Below, one piece after another: positions 6,383 through 44,746 of a DNA stretch of 64,000 nt (position 1 is its first letter; each line of letters starts with the position of its first letter). The stretch comes from Sphingomonas ginsenosidivorax. Lineage in GTDB: Bacteria; Pseudomonadota; Alphaproteobacteria; Sphingomonadales; Sphingomonadaceae. Made by a program: the position numbers and the translations under genes. Location: contig NZ_VOQR01000001.1 of assembly GCF_007995065.1 (NCBI RefSeq), positions 2,545,001 to 2,609,000 of the forward strand. Reading direction: 5' to 3'. A model generated the notes under the pieces. It searched no databases. It had not been told where the DNA came from and saw nothing but the letters and a program-made list of their open reading frames with translations.

Positions 6383-9300
6383 TCAGGCGGCGGTCACCCT
6401 GCCCGTCCGCGCCAGCTTGCCCCAGCCGACGAGCGGACCGCGCAAGGCCTGCGCGATCGCTTTCAGCACGACATAGTACATGACCTGGCGATAGCCGATC
6501 CGTTGCGGGATCAGCAGCCAGAGCAGGTGCCAGCGCTCGCGGCGCTCGAGCGCGAACGCGATCGTCGCGGCGAGCAGGTCGATCGCGGTGAAGACCACCC
6601 AATAGCCGAGCATCGTATAGACGTCGTGACTCGTCTGTTCCCAGCCATGCGCGCGCACCGCGAGATAGGTGAAGAGGAAGCTGACCAGCAGCGCGAGATC
6701 GATGATCGGCGAGATCGCTGCGAGCACGATCTGGAACAGGATCGCCTGTGGCAGGCCGACCCAGCCGAGCCCCTTGGGATGCGAGCCGAAGATCGCCGAG
6801 CGATGTTTGTAGAGGCATTGCAGCGTGCCGTACGCCCAGCGAAACCGTTGCTTGGCGAGCGCGCGCATCGTCTCTGGCGCCTCGGTCCAGGCGATCGCGA
6901 ACTGGTCGTACTTCACCGCCCAGCCGGCGCGCTGGATCGCGATGGTCAGGTCCTGGTCCTCGGCGAGCGTGTCGTCGGGATAGCCCCCGACCGCCCGGAT
7001 CGCGGACAGCCGCCATGCCCCGACCGCACCGGGGACGACGGTCATCGCGTTCAGGCGGGCGAGCGCGCGGCGTTCGAGGTTCTGCGCGGTGATGTATTCG
7101 AGCGCCTGCCATTTGGTGATGATGTTGACGCGGTTGCCGACCTTCGCATTGCCCGCGACCGCGCCCAGCGTCGGATCGACGAACCAGCGCGCGAGGCGGG
7201 CGATCGTGACGGGCTCGAACTGCGTGTCGGCGTCGAGCGCGATGACGATCTCGCCGCGCGCTTCCTCCAGCCCGCGGTTGAGCGCGCGCGCCTTGCCGCC
7301 GTTCTGCAGCGTCATCAGGCGGACGCGAGGGTCGTCGGCAAAGGCGTCGCGCACGACCCGGCTGGTGCCGTCGCTCGACCCGTCGTCGATCACGATGACC
7401 TCGATCTGGACCTCGGTCGAGGCGAGCACGCCGTGCACTGCGCGGACGATGACGCGCTCCTCGTTGAACGCGGGGATCATGACGGTGACGAAGCGGTCGG
7501 GGTCGATCGGCGGGAACACGGTCTTCAACTCGCGGCGCGCCTGGATCAGCGCGAGTGCGGACAAGGCGAGTGCGCGGAGGATACCGATCGTGATCGCGAT
7601 CCCGAAAATCCAGCGCAGCGCGACGACGAGGCCGCCGAGCGTGCTGAACAGCGCGAGGTCGGCCATCGCTGCGACGCGGTCGCCCGACGAGATGACCGGC
7701 ATCGCGGCGTCGCGCGACAGGCCGGCGAGCGTCGAGACGGGAACGAAGCTGTAGCCCATCGCGCGGAGCCGTTCGATGATGATCGGCAGCGCGGCGACGG
7801 TCTGCGCGCGGTTGCCGCCGGCGTCGTGGAGCAGGATGACGTTGCCGCTGCGCTCGGGGTTGCCAGCCTCGACGCCCGCTATGGTGCGGTCGACGATTTG
7901 CTGGACACCCGGGCGCTTCCAGTCGTCGGGGTCGACGTGGAGGCCGACCGAGATGTAGCCGCGCTCCTGCGCCTGCAGCGCGGGGACGATCTCGTCCGCG
8001 GTGCTCGGCTCGGCGTCGCCGAAATAGGGCGCGCGGAACAGGCGGAGCGAGCGGCCGGTGAACGCCTGGAACAGCCGCTGCGTGGTGTTCAGCTCGAACT
8101 TGACCTGGCGCGGCGAGACGGTGGCGAGATTGGGGTGGGTGTAGGTGTGGCTGCCGATCTCGTGCCCCTCCGCGACCATGCGTTCGAGCAGCGAGCGCTG
8201 CGTCAGCGCGTTCTCGCCGATCACGAAGAAGGTCGCGGGCGCGTGCTCGCGCTTGAGGATGTCGAGGATCTGCGGGGTCCATTCGGCGTCGGGCCCGTCG
8301 TCGAAGGTCAGTGCGAGCTGGCGCGGGCGATAGCCGGTGCGATCGACGACATAGGGCGACGGCATCCGGGTGAAGACGACATCGGCGATGCTGCCGTCCC
8401 TGGCGGGCACCGCGTCGCGGATGCCGGTGACGGGGGTCGCGCCGATTTTGAGGATTTCGCCCGATCCTTCGATATCGACATTGGTGCCCGCGGGCATCGC
8501 GTCGATCGAATCGGGGACGGGCAAGGTGCGGTGATCGCGGCCGAAGATCGACCAGAGGCTGGGGTCCTCCGACCCGAGGCGCCACAAGGCGACGCTGCCG
8601 AGCCCGGCCTTTTGCAGGAACGCGATCTGGTTGTACGCCGACGCCGCATCGAGCAGCCAGACCTGGTGGCGGCTGGCGCCTTCGGAATAGGCGAAGCTGC
8701 TGTTGCCGCTGGCCTTGTCGAAGGTCGGGACGGTGCCTGAATCGGCGGCGTTCTGCCACGCTTCCTCGACGTCCAATGCGTCGCCCGATCCGTCGTGCCA
8801 GTCATAGGCGTAGGAGCCGATCGCGACGACGAGCTTGGCGGGCGGAATGCCGCGTGCAGCGTCGGCGACGGTGCGCGCGAACCAGCGCTGCGAGGCGATC
8901 GGGCCGGCCGGACCGCTGGTCTCGTGCTCGTCATACGCCATCAGGACAATCTTGTCGGTCACCGCGGCGTAGGCGGGCAGGTTCCAGTCGGGGTTGGCGA
9001 CCGGGGCTGCGATCGCGACGACCCAGCCGCGGGCCGCGAACCGCGCCTTGGCCTCGGCGAGGAACGTGCGGTAGTCGCGTTGCGCGGTGACCGGCAGGTC
9101 CTCGAAGTCGAAGAACGCGCCGCCGGCGTGGTTGACCGCGAGGAACGGTACCAGCGAATCGAGGAACGCCTTGCGTGCCTTCGGGTCGGCGAACATCGCC
9201 GCGCTGCCCTTGCCGTCCCAGTTTCCGTCGACCGCGTTCTGGACCATCGGCAGGATGACCGGGCGGTGCACCGCCTTGTTGAGGATGTCGCGTCCGGCCT

Positions 9301-20390: not shown

Positions 20391-22376
20391 TCAGGCGAAG
20401 AGGAACGCGTCCTGGTTGGGCGCGGCGGCCGCACCGAACACGTCGATCGCGAAGTCCGCGACGCCATCGCCATTGGTGTCGCCCTGGACGACGTAATGGC
20501 CCGCATCGCTCGCCGCCGAGACGGTCAGCTGCCCGGCCTGGCCGCTGAAACTGTCGACGAACGCGAAGCGGTCGAGCGGATTGGCGTTGCCCTGCACCGC
20601 GTCGACGCTGCGCAGGTCGATACGGTCGCCCGCCCCCTGGCTGAAGTCGAGGATGGTGTCGCGCGCCGTGGCATTGGCGACAAAGCTGTCCGCGCCCGCA
20701 CCGCCGGTGAGCGTGTTGGTGCCGATCCCACCGACCAGTATGTCATTGCCGTCGCCGCCGTCGAGCACGTCATTGCCCTGCCCGCCGTACAGCGTGTCGG
20801 TGCCGATGTTGCCGAACAGCGAGTCATCGCCCTGGTTGCCGAACAGCACGTCGTCGCCCTGGCCGCCATACAGCGTGTCGGTGCCGAACCCGCCGTTGAG
20901 CGTGTCGTTGTCCTGATTGCCATAGAGCGTGTCGTTGCCGTCACCACCGCTGAGCGTGTCGGCGCCGAAGCCGCCGGTCAGGACGTTGGCGTTGGCATCG
21001 CCGGTCAGCGTGTCGGCATAGGCCGATCCGGTCAGATTGGCGATGTCATAGAGCGAGTCGGTGCTGACCCCGGTAGCCTGTGCGACCGCGCCCGTTCCGC
21101 CGACGCCCTGCCCGACCAGCGTGACGGTCACACCGGTCGCGGCATTGGCATAGCCCGCCGTATCCGTCCCACCATCGCCGAAGATCTGGTTGGCGCCGAT
21201 ACCGCCCTCGAGATAATCGTTGCCCAGATTGCCGTGGAGCACGTCGTCGCCCTGCCCACCGAACAGCTGGTCCTCACCCTGGCCTCCGAACAACGTGTCA
21301 TTGCCCTGGTTGCCATACAGAATGTCGTTGCCCTGGTTGCCGTAGAGCATGTCGGCACCGCCGCCGCCGCGCAGCACGTCCATCCCTGCGCCGCCAGCAA
21401 GATAGTCGTCGCCGTCGCCGGTGATAACGCTGTCATCGCCCGATCCGGTGGTGATGCGGAAATTCTCGACGCCCATGAAGTCGGCCTTGGCACCCGACAG
21501 ATCGGCGATCGACCCGACATAGCCGCCGCCGAGGTCCCCGCTGGTGACACCGCCCGTGACCGCCGTCACCGCCGCCGAATAGTCGACGATCAGCTGGTCG
21601 GTGCCGCCACCGGCGACGATCGTGTCCTGTCCGCCGGTGATCGTCATGATGTCGTTGCCGGCACCCGTGGTGATCGAATCGGCGCCATTGCCAGTCGTGA
21701 CAATGTCGGCACCCGCGCCAGTGGTGATCGTATTGGCGCCGTTGCCGGCCTCGACGCGGTTGCCGCCGTCGCCTGCGATGATGGTGTCGGCGTCGTTGCC
21801 GCCGACGATCAGGTTGCGGCCGTTGCCCGCGGTGACGGTGTTGGCGCCGTCGCCGACGCGAATTTCGTTGGTGCCGTTACCGACGGTGATGGTGTCGGCG
21901 CCGCTGCCGGTCAGGACGGTGAAGTCCTCGAACCCGCCATTGATCGTGACGAGGCGACCGCCGCTGCCGGCTTCGGCGAAGTTCGATAGTGAATCACCGG
22001 TGACCGCACCGGTCGCAAGCCTGTAATCGACGATCAGGCGATCCTGGCCGAGCCCTCCGCTGACCGCGTCTGCGCCGCCCGAGACTTGGATGACGTTGTC
22101 GCCGTCGTTGCCGGTGATCATGTTGCCGTCGGCACCATCGAACACGTTGATCGGTGCGGTCCCGCCCAACGTGACGCTGGTGACGCCGCCGGCGAGGTTG
22201 AGCACGATGCCGGTCGACGTCGCGTCGCCGGCAATCGTCATGCCGGTGTAGAGAACCGAGGCGGTTTCGCCCGAATAGCCGGACTCGAGCAGGATGACAT
22301 CACCGGGGCCGCCGGCGACCATGGCATCCTGGATGGAACGGAACGTGGAATTGGGACCTACGGTAAGTGTAGCCAC
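20391..22376 (-). CDS. RTX-type calcium-binding secreted protein
   Basis: The 661-residue protein has no Sec signal, as expected for a type I secretion substrate. The N-terminus (SIQDAMVAGGPGDVILLESG) looks like the start of a parallel beta-helix. Two long blocks of glycine/aspartate repeats follow: asparagine-rich turns (TVGNGTNEIRVGDGANTVTA, about 150-260) and canonical nonapeptides of the form GGxGxDxLx (about 340-420 and 465-590), which bind Ca2+ on export. The chain ends with the serralysin-type C-terminal module RDTILDFSQGAGDRIDLR and a hydrophobic tail DAFLFA that should serve as the secretion signal. No peptidase domain or HlyB/HlyD genes are nearby. Function is probably surface or matrix related. 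Confidence 0.9.
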   Translation of the reverse strand: MATLTVGPNSTFRSIQDAMVAGGPGDVILLESGYSGETASVLYTGMTIAGDATSTGIVLNLAGGVTSVTLGGTAPINVFDGADGNMITGNDGDNVIQVSGGADAVSGGLGQDRLIVDYRLATGAVTGDSLSNFAEAGSGGRLVTINGGFEDFTVLTGSGADTITVGNGTNEIRVGDGANTVTAGNGRNLIVGGNDADTIIAGDGGNRVEAGNGANTITTGAGADIVTTGNGADSITTGAGNDIMTITGGQDTIVAGGGTDQLIVDYSAAVTAVTGGVTSGDLGGGYVGSIADLSGAKADFMGVENFRITTGSGDDSVITGDGDDYLAGGAGMDVLRGGGGADMLYGNQGNDILYGNQGNDTLFGGQGEDQLFGGQGDDVLHGNLGNDYLEGGIGANQIFGDGGTDTAGYANAATGVTVTLVGQGVGGTGAVAQATGVSTDSLYDIANLTGSAYADTLTGDANANVLTGGFGADTLSGGDGNDTLYGNQDNDTLNGGFGTDTLYGGQGDDVLFGNQGDDSLFGNIGTDTLYGGQGNDVLDGGDGNDILVGGIGTNTLTGGAGADSFVANATARDTILDFSQGAGDRIDLRSVDAVQGNANPLDRFAFVDSFSGQAGQLTVSAASDAGHYVVQGDTNGDGVADFAIDVFGAAAAPNQDAFLFA

Positions 22377-23276: not shown

Positions 23277-23480
23277 ATGAAGCCCCTTACGTTCGCCGTA
23301 AAGCGCGCCGCCGGCACGCTCAGCCGTCTGGTACGGGATCGCCGGGGCGCGACTGCGACCGAATACGGCCTGATTCTCGCGTTCGTCTTCCTTGCCCTGC
23401 TCATCGGCGTCACCTCGGTCGGCACCGCGACCAGCGGGATGTGGCACTATGTGTCGGGCAGCGTCAGCAACGCGCGCTGA
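23277..23480 (+). CDS. Flp/Fap-type IVb pilin-like protein
   Basis: The 67-residue protein has the prepilin signature RRGATATEYGLILAFVFLALL. A short basic leader with Gly at residue 24 (RDRRG) precedes ATATEYG, so cleavage by a TadV/CpaA-type peptidase would leave Glu at +5 and Tyr at +6. The hydrophobic helix follows and the tail is short (WHYVSGSVSNAR). Its leader is longer than usual and its tail differs from the next gene, so it may be a minor pilin or pseudopilin. No tad/cpa secretion genes are in the window. Confidence 0.85.
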   Translation: MKPLTFAVKRAAGTLSRLVRDRRGATATEYGLILAFVFLALLIGVTSVGTATSGMWHYVSGSVSNAR

Positions 23481-23603
23481 CGATCCGACACGACGGGCCC
23501 GGTCTTAAACCTTTCTCAACCTGCCAGCTTTATCCGTCGATTTGCTGATCCGGTCCGTCCGGTCCAGCCGGGTGACTGAAACGACCAGACAATGGAGACC
23601 GGA

Positions 23604-23777
23604 ATGAAGACGATTCGCAATTTCCTGAAGAACAACAAGGGCGCCACCGCAATCGAGTACGGCCTGATCGCCGCGCTGATCGCCGTTGCCGCCATCGCAG
23701 CGATGCAGGGTCTGGGCACCAGCCTGAACAAGACCTTCAACAACGTCTCGGGCCAGCTCAACAGCTCGGTCAAGTAA
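23604..23777 (+). CDS. flp: Flp family type IVb pilin (major pilin candidate)
   Basis: The 57-residue protein starts at ATG 23604 behind GGAG; the ATG at 23592 overlaps that site. The sequence KNNKGATAIEYGLIAALIAVAAIAAM is the standard Flp prepilin processing site and N-terminal helix, with Glu at +5 and Tyr at +6. The C-terminal part (LNKTFNNVSGQLNSS) is as in Caulobacter PilA-like pilins. A good terminator directly follows, as expected for a strongly expressed structural gene. Pilus assembly must rely on genes elsewhere in the chromosome. Confidence 0.92.
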   Translation: MKTIRNFLKNNKGATAIEYGLIAALIAVAAIAAMQGLGTSLNKTFNNVSGQLNSSVK

Positions 23778-29522: not shown

Positions 29523-29535
29523 CCCTTGCCACCCC

Positions 29536-29619
29536 CCGTCATCCTGACGAACGTCAGGATCCAGGGTAACGACCGCAGCGCTGCTTGGCTCTGGATCCTG
29601 ACGTTCGTCAGGATGACGG
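29536..29619. repeat. Palindromic element, family C (copy 2)
   Basis: CCGTCATCCTGACGAACGTC-AGGATCC on the left and GGATCCTGACGTTCGTCAGG-ATGACGG on the right give an 84-bp near-perfect palindrome, each half being a hairpin. It lies at the aroB-DUF2256 operon end and next to a duplicated gene tail. Confidence 0.85.
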
Positions 29620-29627
29620 CAGGTTGA

Positions 29628-29706
29628 ATGCACTCCACGCGAGCCACAGCCACCCGCCGATCAGCAGCGCGCCGCCGATCGGGGTGATCGCGCCGAACCA
29701 GCGCGG
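29628..29706 (-). pseudogene. Duplicated 3'-end fragment of the DUF423 gene
   Basis: These 79 bases match 29813-29891, the 3' coding end of the DUF423 gene, at 75 of 79 positions. In the minus-strand frame they still encode RWFGAITPIGGALLIGGWLWLAWSA, but the copy has no start and continues into the family C element at 29536. It is separated from the intact gene by another family C element. See the corresponding finding. Confidence 0.85.
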
Positions 29707-29710
29707 TAGC

Positions 29711-29803
29711 GACCGTCATGCTGAACTTGTTTCAGCATCCACCGCGACATGGGCGCCTACGCTCGCGGAATGGTGGACCCTGAACCGAGTTCAGGGTGAC
29801 GGG
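29711..29803. repeat. Palindromic element, family C (copy 3)
   Basis: ACCGTCATGCTGAACTTGTT-TCAGCAT on the left and CCCTGAACCGAGTTCAGGG-TGACGGG on the right. The element fills the space between the DUF423 stop (29805) and the duplicated tail fragment of that gene. Confidence 0.85.
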
Positions 29804-29804
29804 T

Positions 29805-30131
29805 CTAGCGGGATGCACTCCACGCGAGCCATAGCCACCCGCCGATCAGCAGCGCGCCGCCGACGGGCGTGATCGCGCCGAACCAGCGCGGCGCGCCCAA
29901 TGCCATCGCGTAGAGCGTGATCGCGAAGATCGCCGCGCCCACCACGAACAGCCAAGCCGGTCCGCGCGCCTCCATCCGCGCCGCGACGAGGGCGGCGACG
30001 ACGTGGACGAGCTGATACTGCGCGCCGGTCCGCAGCCATTCGGCGGCCGACCCGCTGGCGCCGTGCGCGCCGAACGCGCCAGCGGCCACCGCGAGGGCGC
30101 CCGACAGCGCGGCGAGGACGATCAAGATCAT
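29805..30131 (-). CDS. DUF423 membrane protein (YwdK/TMEM256 family)
   Basis: The 108-residue protein has four hydrophobic segments. The family signature AAGAFGAHG is near residues 17-25, with a polar stretch TGAQYQLVHVVAAL (about 40-53) and the C-terminal FGAITPVGGALLIGGWLWLAW. The function of the family is unknown. The start overlaps the stop of the cation/proton antiporter by four bases, so the pair is co-translated. The last residues (WSASR) differ from those read in the neighbouring duplicated tail (WSAFN), so one of the two ends has changed. Confidence 0.88.
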   Translation of the reverse strand: MILIVLAALSGALAVAAGAFGAHGASGSAAEWLRTGAQYQLVHVVAALVAARMEARGPAWLFVVGAAIFAITLYAMALGAPRWFGAITPVGGALLIGGWLWLAWSASR

Positions 30132-42790: not shown

Positions 42791-43498
42791 ATGATCGACA
42801 CGGCAGTCATCCTCGCGGCCGGCGAAGGCAGCCGGCTGCGGGCGTCGGCGCCGTACAAGCCGCTCTGCCCGGTGGCGGGGCGGCCGTTGATCGACCATGC
42901 GCTCGACGGCCTCGCCGCGGCGGGTTTGACGCGCGTGGTGGTCGTGCTCGGGTACGGCGAAGAGCGAATCGCGGCGCATCTGGCGTCGCGGCGCTGGGAT
43001 ATCGCGGTCGAGACGGTGCGGAGCGATCCGCGCCGGCCGAACGGCGTGTCGGTGCTCGCCGCCGCGCCGGTGCTGGACGGCGGCGAGGCGGTACTCGCGA
43101 TGTGCGACCATCTCGTCACGCCGGCGCATTATGGGCGGATGGCGCGGGCTGGTGCGGGAACGGGCTTGCGGCTCGGAATCGACCGGCGGCTGGGGCATGA
43201 CTGGGTCGATCCCGAGGACGTGACCTGCGTCGCGACCGACGGCGACGCGATCGTCGCGATCGGCAAGGGACTCGAGCCGCACGACTGCTACGATACCGGC
43301 GTGTTCGCGATCGGCCCGGCGCTGATGGACGCGCTGGCGACGCTGGAGGCGCCGTCGCTGACCGAGGGCGTGCGGTTGCTGATGGCGGACGGGTCGGCAC
43401 AGGTGGTCGATTGCAGCGATCTCGACTGGATCGACGTGGACGACGCCGCGGCGCTGGCCAAGGCGGAAGCCTGGATGGCGGGCGCGATCGCGGCCTGA
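42791..43498 (+). CDS. MobA/sugar-phosphate nucleotidylyltransferase-like protein
   Basis: The 235-residue protein has the nucleotidyltransferase signature VILAAGEGSRLR near residue 7, KPLCPVAGRPLIDHAL, and the metal-site region MCDHLV (residues about 105-110), in the order expected for MobA-like or sugar-phosphate cytidylyl/guanylyltransferases. Its start is only one base after the ino1 stop, so both are co-translated. In archaea and Thermotoga the inositol-1-phosphate cytidylyltransferase belongs to this fold and is fused to a CDP-alcohol transferase; by analogy it could make CDP-inositol. Donor nucleotide and acceptor sugar are unproven. Confidence 0.85.
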   Translation: MIDTAVILAAGEGSRLRASAPYKPLCPVAGRPLIDHALDGLAAAGLTRVVVVLGYGEERIAAHLASRRWDIAVETVRSDPRRPNGVSVLAAAPVLDGGEAVLAMCDHLVTPAHYGRMARAGAGTGLRLGIDRRLGHDWVDPEDVTCVATDGDAIVAIGKGLEPHDCYDTGVFAIGPALMDALATLEAPSLTEGVRLLMADGSAQVVDCSDLDWIDVDDAAALAKAEAWMAGAIAA

Positions 43499-43533
43499 GT
43501 TTCCGGGCGAGCGCCATCGCCGCGGTTCGTTCC

Positions 43534-43597
43534 CCCGCGCAGGGGTCCAGGAGCCGCAAGCGCTGCCCCCGTCACCCTGGGCTCCCGCCTGCGCGGG
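43534..43597. repeat. Palindromic sequence preceding the cyclophilin repeat cluster
   Basis: CCCGCGCAGG and CCTGCGCGGG flank about 44 bases that include CTGGGCTCCCG. It looks like a diverged member of the hairpin families. It begins the 582-base gene-free stretch 43499-44080, which otherwise holds the family C and B elements and duplicated cyclophilin tails listed here. Confidence 0.6.
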
Positions 43598-43606
43598 AGA
43601 ACTCTT

Positions 43607-43703
43607 CGTCACCCCGGACGCGTTCCGGGGTCCATGGTGCCGCGTAATCGAGAGCGGTTGGTTTGCGGCACGATGGATGCCGGAACACGTCCGGCATGAC
43701 GGA
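43607..43703. repeat. Palindromic element, family C (copy 4)
   Basis: CGTCACCCCGGACGCGTTCC-GGGG on the left and TGCCGGAACACGTCCGGCA-TGACGG on the right, separated by about 50 bases. It is followed directly by a degenerate cyclophilin gene tail. Confidence 0.85.
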
Positions 43704-43709
43704 GAAGCA

Positions 43710-43768
43710 TTACTTCGTTCGCCGCACCGTCAGGATCGGCACGCGCGGCGCCAGCATCTGGCTTTCCC
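43710..43768 (-). pseudogene. Duplicated 3' tail of the cyclophilin gene (copy A)
   Basis: On the minus strand these bases read MLAPRVPILTVRRTK-stop, closely matching the real cyclophilin end (MLAAPVRILTVRRAK-stop at 44081). No upstream part of the gene is present. It is followed upstream by a family B palindrome. Confidence 0.8.
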
Positions 43769-43775
43769 CCCTCCA

Positions 43776-43878
43776 CTTCCCCGGCGAAGGCCGGGGCCCA
43801 AATGGGGGGCGTTCATGATGACGGGCAGCGCGCCGTTACCGCAACCTTCTCAATTGGGCCCCGGCCTTCGCCGGGGTG
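43776..43878. repeat. Palindromic element, family B (copy 3)
   Basis: Arms TTCCCCGGCGAAGGCCGGGG and CCCCGGCCTTCGCCGGGG, with the internal signature CCGTTACCGCAACCTTCTCA. It separates two degenerate cyclophilin tails. Confidence 0.85.
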
Positions 43879-43885
43879 GTCCCTG

Positions 43886-43943
43886 TTACTCCGTTCGCCG
43901 CTCCATCAAGATCCGCACCGACGCGGCATACATCTGCCCTTCC
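43886..43943 (-). pseudogene. Duplicated 3' tail of the cyclophilin gene (copy B)
   Basis: On the minus strand it reads MYAASVRILMERRTE-stop, a more diverged version of the cyclophilin C-terminus, still with the TAA stop in register. It starts 176 bases after copy A. Confidence 0.75.
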
Positions 43944-43951
43944 AACCCTCC

Positions 43952-44053
43952 CCTTCCCCGGCGGAGGCCGGGGCCCAGATGGGAACATGCGTGAAGAGGG
44001 GCGCGCTCCGTTACCGCGACCTTTCCAACTGGGCCCCGGCCTTCGCTGGGGTG
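43952..44053. repeat. Palindromic element, family B (copy 4)
   Basis: Arms TTCCCCGGCGGAGGCCGGGG and CCCCGGCCTTCGCTGGGG, with the internal signature CTCCGTTACCGCGACCTTTC. It lies just downstream of the intact cyclophilin stop codon (44081-44083). Confidence 0.85.
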
Positions 44054-44080
44054 GTGTTCGGGGGTGGGCGGTGCCGCGGG

Positions 44081-44746
44081 TTACTTCGCGCGGCGTACCG
44101 TCAGGATCCGCACCGGCGCGGCGAGCATCTGGCCCTTCATCGCGCCCACGCCCTCGGTCGCCGAGGTCGGCGCGTCGAGGATGCGGCGGACGACGTCCAT
44201 GCCTTCGACGACGTGGCCGAACGCGGCGAACCCCTGGTTGTCGCCTTCGCGCTTGGGATCGGCGTCGAGATACGGGATCGCGCCGACGGTGATGAAGAAA
44301 TCGGCGGTCCCCGTCCCCGGTGCGAAGCGGGCGAGCGAGATCGTGGCGTCGTCGTGCGTCAGGCCGGTCAGGCTCGTCGGCTCGTGCGCGACCGGCGGCA
44401 GGACGCGCTTGGGTTCGCCCTTGGCGCCGCCCTGGATCAGCCCGACGCCATTGCCGAGCTTCATCGCACGGTAGAAGGTGACGCCGTCGAGCCGCTTCTG
44501 GTCGACATAGCGCAGGAAATTTGCGGTCGTCTTGGGCGCATGGTCCTTGTCGAGCGCGAAGGTCATTGGCCCTTCGCTCGTCGTCAGCACCACGCGGATC
44601 GCGGTTGCGGGAACGGTGGGCGCAGGAGCGGCGGGCACGGGAACCGCATAGGCCGGCACGGCCGGAGCGAGCGGAATCCCGTTCTGCGCGGACACGGCGG
44701 GAGCGATGCAGAGCGCGATCGCGGCGAGGGAGGATCGATGGGCCAT
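44081..44746 (-). CDS. ppiA: Periplasmic peptidyl-prolyl cis-trans isomerase, cyclophilin type
   Basis: The 221-residue protein starts at ATG 44746 with a signal peptide (MAHRSSLAAIALCIAPAVSAQ) and a short Pro/Ala-rich linker. The cyclophilin domain follows: IRVVLTTSEGPMTFALDKDHAPKTTANFLRYVD, GVTFYRAMKLGNGVGLIQGG, ISLARFAPGTGTADFFITVG, and FAAFGHVVEGMDVVRRI. The Phe-rich catalytic core and the usual active-site Arg in the FYRAM motif are present. It speeds proline isomerisation in the envelope. The gene is followed by two degenerate copies of its own C-terminal coding end alternating with palindromes. Confidence 0.93.
   Translation of the reverse strand: MAHRSSLAAIALCIAPAVSAQNGIPLAPAVPAYAVPVPAAPAPTVPATAIRVVLTTSEGPMTFALDKDHAPKTTANFLRYVDQKRLDGVTFYRAMKLGNGVGLIQGGAKGEPKRVLPPVAHEPTSLTGLTHDDATISLARFAPGTGTADFFITVGAIPYLDADPKREGDNQGFAAFGHVVEGMDVVRRILDAPTSATEGVGAMKGQMLAAPVRILTVRRAK

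Follow-up and report, generated by a model that had tools for sequence, protein, structure and literature searches.

The 3' end of a cyclophilin-type peptidyl-prolyl isomerase gene was found to be followed by a short tandem array, in which degenerate copies of the gene end alternate with inverted pairs of REP palindromes. Local duplication around a REP hairpin is the probable origin of this array. The array is a variant of known tandem REP clusters, and the recurrent capture of gene ends is the newer part; the loci that were examined point to five or more separate origins of gene-end copies beside palindromic repeats. Positions refer to the window, that is, the whole stretch of 64,000 nucleotides that was analysed.

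The array downstream of the cyclophilin gene

The cyclophilin gene (44081..44746, minus strand; Pfam PF00160, 84 bits, start Met left off) has the C-terminus ILTVRRAK-stop and was matched in 293 of the 295 genus genomes searched, its own included. The native gene tail, identified by alignment as the source of the copies, occupies 44081..44147. The array was read on the minus strand. From the stop codon, a 24-bp spacer (44057..44080) leads to REP pair 1 of family B (43956..44056), followed by tail copy 2 (43886..43955; junction 43939-43955 and 53-nt core 43886-43938, ending ILMERRTE-stop), a 5-bp spacer (43881..43885), REP pair 2, again of family B (43779..43880), and tail copy 3 (43710..43778; junction 43763-43778 and 53-nt core 43710-43762, ending ILTVRRTK-stop). 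A CGTC-type REP pair (43607..43701, minus strand) closes the array; it was recognised by sequence inspection and fold and had been called family C in the first-pass annotation. Next to it lies a REP pair of a third type (43529..43602, minus strand), which syntenic relatives (L058, L062) have at the same place, and beyond that a convergent nucleotidyltransferase gene (42791-43498), also the next gene in the relatives' loci L056, L058, L060 and L062. Homology between the 24-bp and the 5-bp spacer is not evident; the REP-to-tail junction is alike in both units when tail copies 2 and 3 are aligned.

The gene end is copied over 68 nt without gaps, at spacings of 176 and 195. Local alignment gave scores of 31 (gene against copy 2), 33 (gene against copy 3) and 33 (copy 2 against copy 3), compared with maxima of 15, 17 and 15 among 2000 dinucleotide shuffles for each comparison. 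As every pairwise comparison exceeded all shuffles, chance similarity of the tails was ruled out, and the alternating gene-tail and palindrome units described in the first-pass annotation are real. Within the 53-nt core, identity was 40/53 (gene and copy 2), 43/53 (gene and copy 3) and 39/53 (copy 2 and copy 3). TRF reported the array at 43710-44055 with a period of 175, 2.0 copies and 80% matches. An assembly artefact is unlikely, as the tail copies here and at the DUF423 locus described below differ from their genes by 5–26% and the chromosome is one 3.96 Mb contig.

The cyclophilin tail copies are old (tails 74–81% identical) and decaying, and no function is indicated for them. Copies 2 and 3 agree with their own gene end at 40 and 43 of 53 positions, and with the gene ends of 22 REP-bearing relatives at 31–40 and 32–39 of 53; they thus fit their own gene at least as well as those of relatives and were probably copied after the split from them. 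In the alignment, the two copies have in common four bases at which the gene differs, which weakly supports their being sisters. At two of the four, the relatives mostly side with the copies, so the gene itself changed there; the other two (AA) occur in the copies only.

What had been described as a 'family B palindrome' is indeed present twice, but each element is an inverted pair of palindromes of ~101–102 bp rather than a single palindrome, with a predicted RNA fold of one long hairpin. Fold energies were -61.7 kcal/mol for REP pair 1 (z -5.8) and -69.2 kcal/mol for REP pair 2 (z -7.4); the CGTC-type pair region (43607-43708) had a fold z of -9.2, and tail copy 2 folded no better than shuffles (z 0.24). 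The two family-B pairs are 83% identical overall and 72% in the loop, compared with up to 75% between the loops of the best unrelated family-B pairs among 53 from this genome, and up to 79% among 94 from relatives.

Family-B arms occur 71 times in forward and 65 times in reverse orientation in the genome (reversed-pattern control 0), so that family B shows the inverted palindromes in many copies by which REPINs and REP pairs are recognised. At least 55 pairs, most of them 104–107 bp long, were extracted from about 100 of the 136 arms. The RAYT-type transposase PF01797 had no match in this genome and matched in five of 14 control genomes; family B is therefore REP-like, without a cognate RAYT (Y1) transposase found in the genome. 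CGTC REPs are characterised by CGTC at one end, an 8–9 bp stem starting AT, a 4–5 nt loop and a CCA tail. On inspection, the pair at 43607-43701 shows these features, and so do the DUF423 pairs, except for one arm with a stem starting AC; at L124 the genome has another pair like that at 43607-43701. Both the CGTC and the GTAG tag are missing from family B (CCCCGGCGAAGGCCGGGGCCCA), which falls outside the CGTC definition. The 20 Rfam matches all fell short of the thresholds set for their families; 18 were to microRNA hairpin models, and they were taken as chance.

Family-B pairs in relatives and elsewhere in the genome

The region downstream of the cyclophilin gene was inspected in the best 29 of the 293 genus genomes with a cyclophilin match (own genome counted in the 293). 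Family-B arms were present there in 22 of the 29 relatives, the first arm starting 11–40 nt past the stop codon (29 here), and the loci whose sequence was viewed have one family-B pair each. None of the 29 had a self-copy of the gene end above shuffles (one tie, L077). A separate set of 21 relatives' loci, overlapping the 29 in species, gave the same outcome. With the REP in 22 of 29 relatives and the tail copy in none, the REP probably predates the array, which would then have formed by local duplication around it, rather than being an element that carries gene tails.

Flanking copies were also sought at other family-B pairs. None of the 53 sampled in this genome had a convincing one, the two cyclophilin pairs alone showing it, and the 94 pairs tested from relatives, most of them from G014 and G039 and a few from other genomes, had no convincing one either. 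Tail copying does not characterise family B as a whole, and long target-site duplication was rejected as a general rule on the same 53 and 94 pairs. In the own-genome flank test, L110, L015 and L126 scored above control and proved on inspection to be gapped low-identity matches of coding-like flanks to each other. About ten further rows (scores 18–25, controls 16–20), taken together, were mostly long gapped matches and were set aside, as were L103 (22 against 19) and L015 (19 against 17) in a second test. In this second test the two cyclophilin rows scored 33 against an own control maximum of 46, which came from unmasked other REP families beside the locus (L124 and others) and not from tails; the tails therefore rest on the shuffle comparison and the first flank test. 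Among relatives, row L194 (33, control 18) was rejected because the same terminator type stands on both sides of the REP, L207 (20, control 16) was set aside, and L188 and L183 had high scores that were below their own controls. The relatives' test covered family B, and CTGAAC-family arms numbered 0 in that sample.

Two of these loci have further features. At L110 (about 1873.2 kb), a short family-B pair at 1459-1530 lies amid coding-like stretches and is possibly an intragenic REP. At L194 (relative G014), an inverted repeat of about 100 bp and the same terminator type were seen by eye to flank the REP pair (7520-8110); the pair and its flanking repeats sit between two genes.

Gene-end copies at other loci

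The absence of other tail-copy loci had been named in the first-pass annotation among the conditions that would refute its reading. It is contradicted by the copies at DUF423, met in a scan of the window, at GspE and TrcR elsewhere in this genome, and at TrcR in one relative (G038). At the DUF423 gene (29805..30131, minus strand; PF04241), the last ~80 bp are copied downstream. A CGTC (CTGAAC) REP pair (29713..29803, minus strand) separates the gene end from the copy (29628..29706, minus strand), which is identical at 75/79 positions to its source at 29813-29891. After the copy comes a second, unlike CGTC (CTGACG) pair (29531..29624, minus strand); the best local match between the two pairs is only 21/29. 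None of the 23 relatives examined, out of a set of 29, has the copy, and its identity of 75/79 suggests that it is more recent than the cyclophilin copies. The DUF423 end that resembles those of relatives (ASR-stop) is the one next to the nearer REP, and the downstream copy is truncated.

Following the CGTC REPs genome-wide led to a run of tandem arrays with periods of 95–201; 100 of the 186 CGTC REP places were taken in, so the loci are a lower bound. The repeat unit at L308 (GspE by PF00437; about 806.6 kb) contains the GspE tail (28/34) together with the start of the following gene (40/49), which from sequence and position we take to be GspF. No GspE tail copy was present in 22 relatives. 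At L344 (about 2.691 Mb; TrcR by PF06242), the TrcR tail forms part of the unit (33/38 in one copy and 26/35 in a second), which by eye also seems to take in the first few codons of a gene on the other side. One of 22 relatives, G038, has a TrcR tail copy (score 93 against 16), quite unlike that at L344: about 123 nt of tail and a palindromic repeat are copied downstream (L404, gene-sense 2050-2620), the stop codon is altered in the copy, and another REP pair stands between the two tails. The two TrcR copies are apparently independent. The five loci, four here and one in a relative, differ in age (about 74–95% identity), and at each the tail belongs to its own neighbour gene.

The intergenic site downstream of GspE was also viewed in 22 relatives (L377-L398). 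By eye, the same site holds different palindromic repeats, which therefore seem to turn over quickly there. At L323 (about 1302.2 kb), the stop of a predicted ORF at 1830 apparently comes from the REP arm itself (CCC TGA), and the tandem copy carries a few last codons of this ORF.

Origin of the array and duplications near REPs

Repeated duplication of a tail-plus-palindrome unit, already suggested in the first-pass annotation, fits best, with two 175-bp TRF units. The ancestor, as the relatives suggest, would have had the cyclophilin gene, a short spacer and one family-B REP pair. A segment from about 58 bp before the gene end through the REP pair would have been duplicated in place in this lineage; as it began within the gene, the copied flank of the REP happened to be coding. 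The REP-plus-tail unit would have doubled again, since copies 2 and 3 have common changes absent from the gene, and the last REP would have been lost or bypassed, leaving the array to end at the CGTC-type pair. The agent was likely replication slippage or template switching as the polymerase met a strong hairpin, which would not need a transposase. Tandem duplication with breakpoints in the flanks would explain the GspE and TrcR loci directly. At the cyclophilin and DUF423 loci, where the last unit breaks off at the hairpin foot and a different REP follows, either the last hairpin would have been lost or a second template switch would have passed it.

Several observations speak against duplication. 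Plain doubling of tail and REP predicts a family-B REP after copy 3, whereas a different REP stands there, as likewise at DUF423, and the loops of REP pairs 1 and 2 (72%) are less alike than the loops of family-B pairs that are most similar without being related. The 24-bp and 5-bp spacers show no evident homology, and duplications around REPs were not enriched in the relatives' sample described below. Where the breakpoint is presumed, microhomology was weak, with 8 bp in one relative, a value reached by 15 of 200 shuffles. We tentatively propose, as a possible though rather doubtful account, that REP hairpins are local copying hot spots, where a polymerase that has passed the hairpin switches back and recopies the end of the preceding gene. 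On its second pass it would stop or jump at the hairpin foot, giving the tail-REP-tail'-(other REP) anatomy seen at cyclophilin and DUF423. If so, gene-end copies would be seeded repeatedly beside intact genes, offering alternative C-termini for recombination.

The different REP at the array end and the modest loop similarity would suit REP pairs that insert with an unusually long (50–80 bp) target-site duplication, each leaving a gene-tail copy. Such insertion would likewise yield tail-REP-tail, REP pairs 1 and 2 need then be no more alike than the best unrelated copies, and the DUF423 tails are identical at 75/79 positions although the REPs adjoining them belong to different subfamilies, the cyclophilin array likewise ending at another REP family. 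We nevertheless consider it unlikely. The duplication should be present wherever the element sits, and in 22 of 29 relatives the cyclophilin gene is followed by a family-B REP and no tail copy; none of the 53 own and 94 relatives' pairs sampled showed a convincing flanking copy. At DUF423, the relatives-like end lies at the nearer REP and the truncated copy farther away, which is the wrong order for insertion. Insertion with a 50–60 bp target copy, which had been given as the alternative in the first-pass annotation, is accordingly not favoured.

That selection maintains the array as a series of terminators or a stabiliser of mRNA ends, a role proposed for the tandem units after E. coli tyrT, is improbable. 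Strong hairpins are predicted right after the cyclophilin stop codon, a REP follows the gene in 22 of 29 relatives, and the layout resembles that at E. coli tyrT/tyrV, but none of the 22 REP-bearing relatives has the tail-copy array, the loci whose sequence was viewed having a single family-B pair, while tail copy 2 folds no better than shuffles and the copies are diverging. Selection would in any case account for the persistence of the array and not for its origin. That a mobile element moves captured gene tails between places is highly improbable, as nothing beyond the local copies speaks for it, every locus carries the tail of its own neighbour, and a search of the genome with the 439-bp array found tails only here (40 of 210 candidate places scored), the 80 other matches listed covering REP sequence and no more than a few bases of tail.

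Local duplication has counterparts in other bacteria. In E. coli K-12 MG1655, a sequence check after tyrV/tyrT (rttR) showed a unit that occurs three times, spaced by 178 bp and 95% identical, with about 19 bp of the tRNA gene 3' end in every copy; a fourth copy (66%) lies between the two tRNA genes. These tandem units after tyrT have a proposed role in rho-dependent termination. Like the cyclophilin array, they hold the 3' end of the upstream gene, although that gene encodes a tRNA; the likeness is one of layout, and homology is not claimed. REP-REP recombination forms the join point of large tandem duplications, and there too REPs are the places where duplications form, but the joins lie in REPs kilobases apart, whereas here the units are 95–201 bp and the joins lie in the flanks.

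In Pseudomonas fluorescens SBW25, 16 tandem REPIN clusters 'including the flanking sequences' were reported (Bertels and Rainey 2011, PMC3116915). The arrangement in the available part of that report, an inverted REP pair and its flank in tandem, with units usually parted by a short unrepeated stretch, is also that of the cyclophilin locus, where the TRF units (175 x 2.0, 80%) and the tail copies form an ordered tandem REPIN cluster. It differs in that the flank here is a coding 3' end at some loci, gene ends not being mentioned in that part of the report, that the cyclophilin array ends at another REP family, and that PF01797 was not found in this genome. CGTC REP families occur in alphaproteobacteria including S. 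wittichii, with REPs close to gene 3' ends, and clusters reiterated with flanking DNA were noted for GTAG families, as given in the available part of PMC3733652. The REPs at the array end, DUF423, GspE and TrcR agree by inspection with the CGTC families described there (CGTC start, stem of about 8 bp, 4–5 nt loop, CCA tail); family B, with neither tag, does not. In the available text of open-licence PMC papers, no discussion of coding gene ends in REP clusters was found. The earlier statement that no described REP copies the end of its neighbour gene is nevertheless too strong, given the flank-including clusters in that part of PMC3116915 and the E. coli tyrT/tyrV array.

In many bacteria, REPs lie against the 3' ends of genes. 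Should they duplicate these ends recurrently, they would give rise to small structural variants and to changes at C-termini, and a short tail copy next to a REP would need no special mobile element. The five loci of different age offer examples for working out how such duplications start.

Short tandem duplications were counted in an own-genome sample of 0.59 Mb chosen around REPs: 13 in 125,555 bp near REPs and 2 in 469,056 bp away from them. Some of the 13 are mainly REP pair with little flank and could be two adjacent insertions. Flank duplication exceeded the control at cyclophilin, DUF423, L308, L338, L340, L344 and L354. The CGTC-led flank test comprised 164 REP pairs, with 38 of family B kept and the cyclophilin pairs apparently not among them, so that the family-B result rests on the two own-genome flank tests above; L015 (23 against 15) and some rows of 15–19 (controls 14–18) were regarded as noise. 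The near-REP excess was absent from the relatives' sample, which was chosen around family B (2 duplications within 91,042 bp near REPs and 5 within 422,583 bp elsewhere). CTGAAC-family arms dominate the own-genome sample (132) and are absent from the relatives' one, and the duplication process may thus be tied to a REP family that expanded recently, with cyclophilin, beside the older family B, as an exception.

Both duplications away from REPs fall in one coding repeat region (20694-21801). Coding repeats of 27 bp, which look RTX-like, form a long run over 20694-22137 of the window. At 23345-23690 there are two similar short stretches, 294 bp apart, which by their motif resemble paired Flp-type pilin genes.
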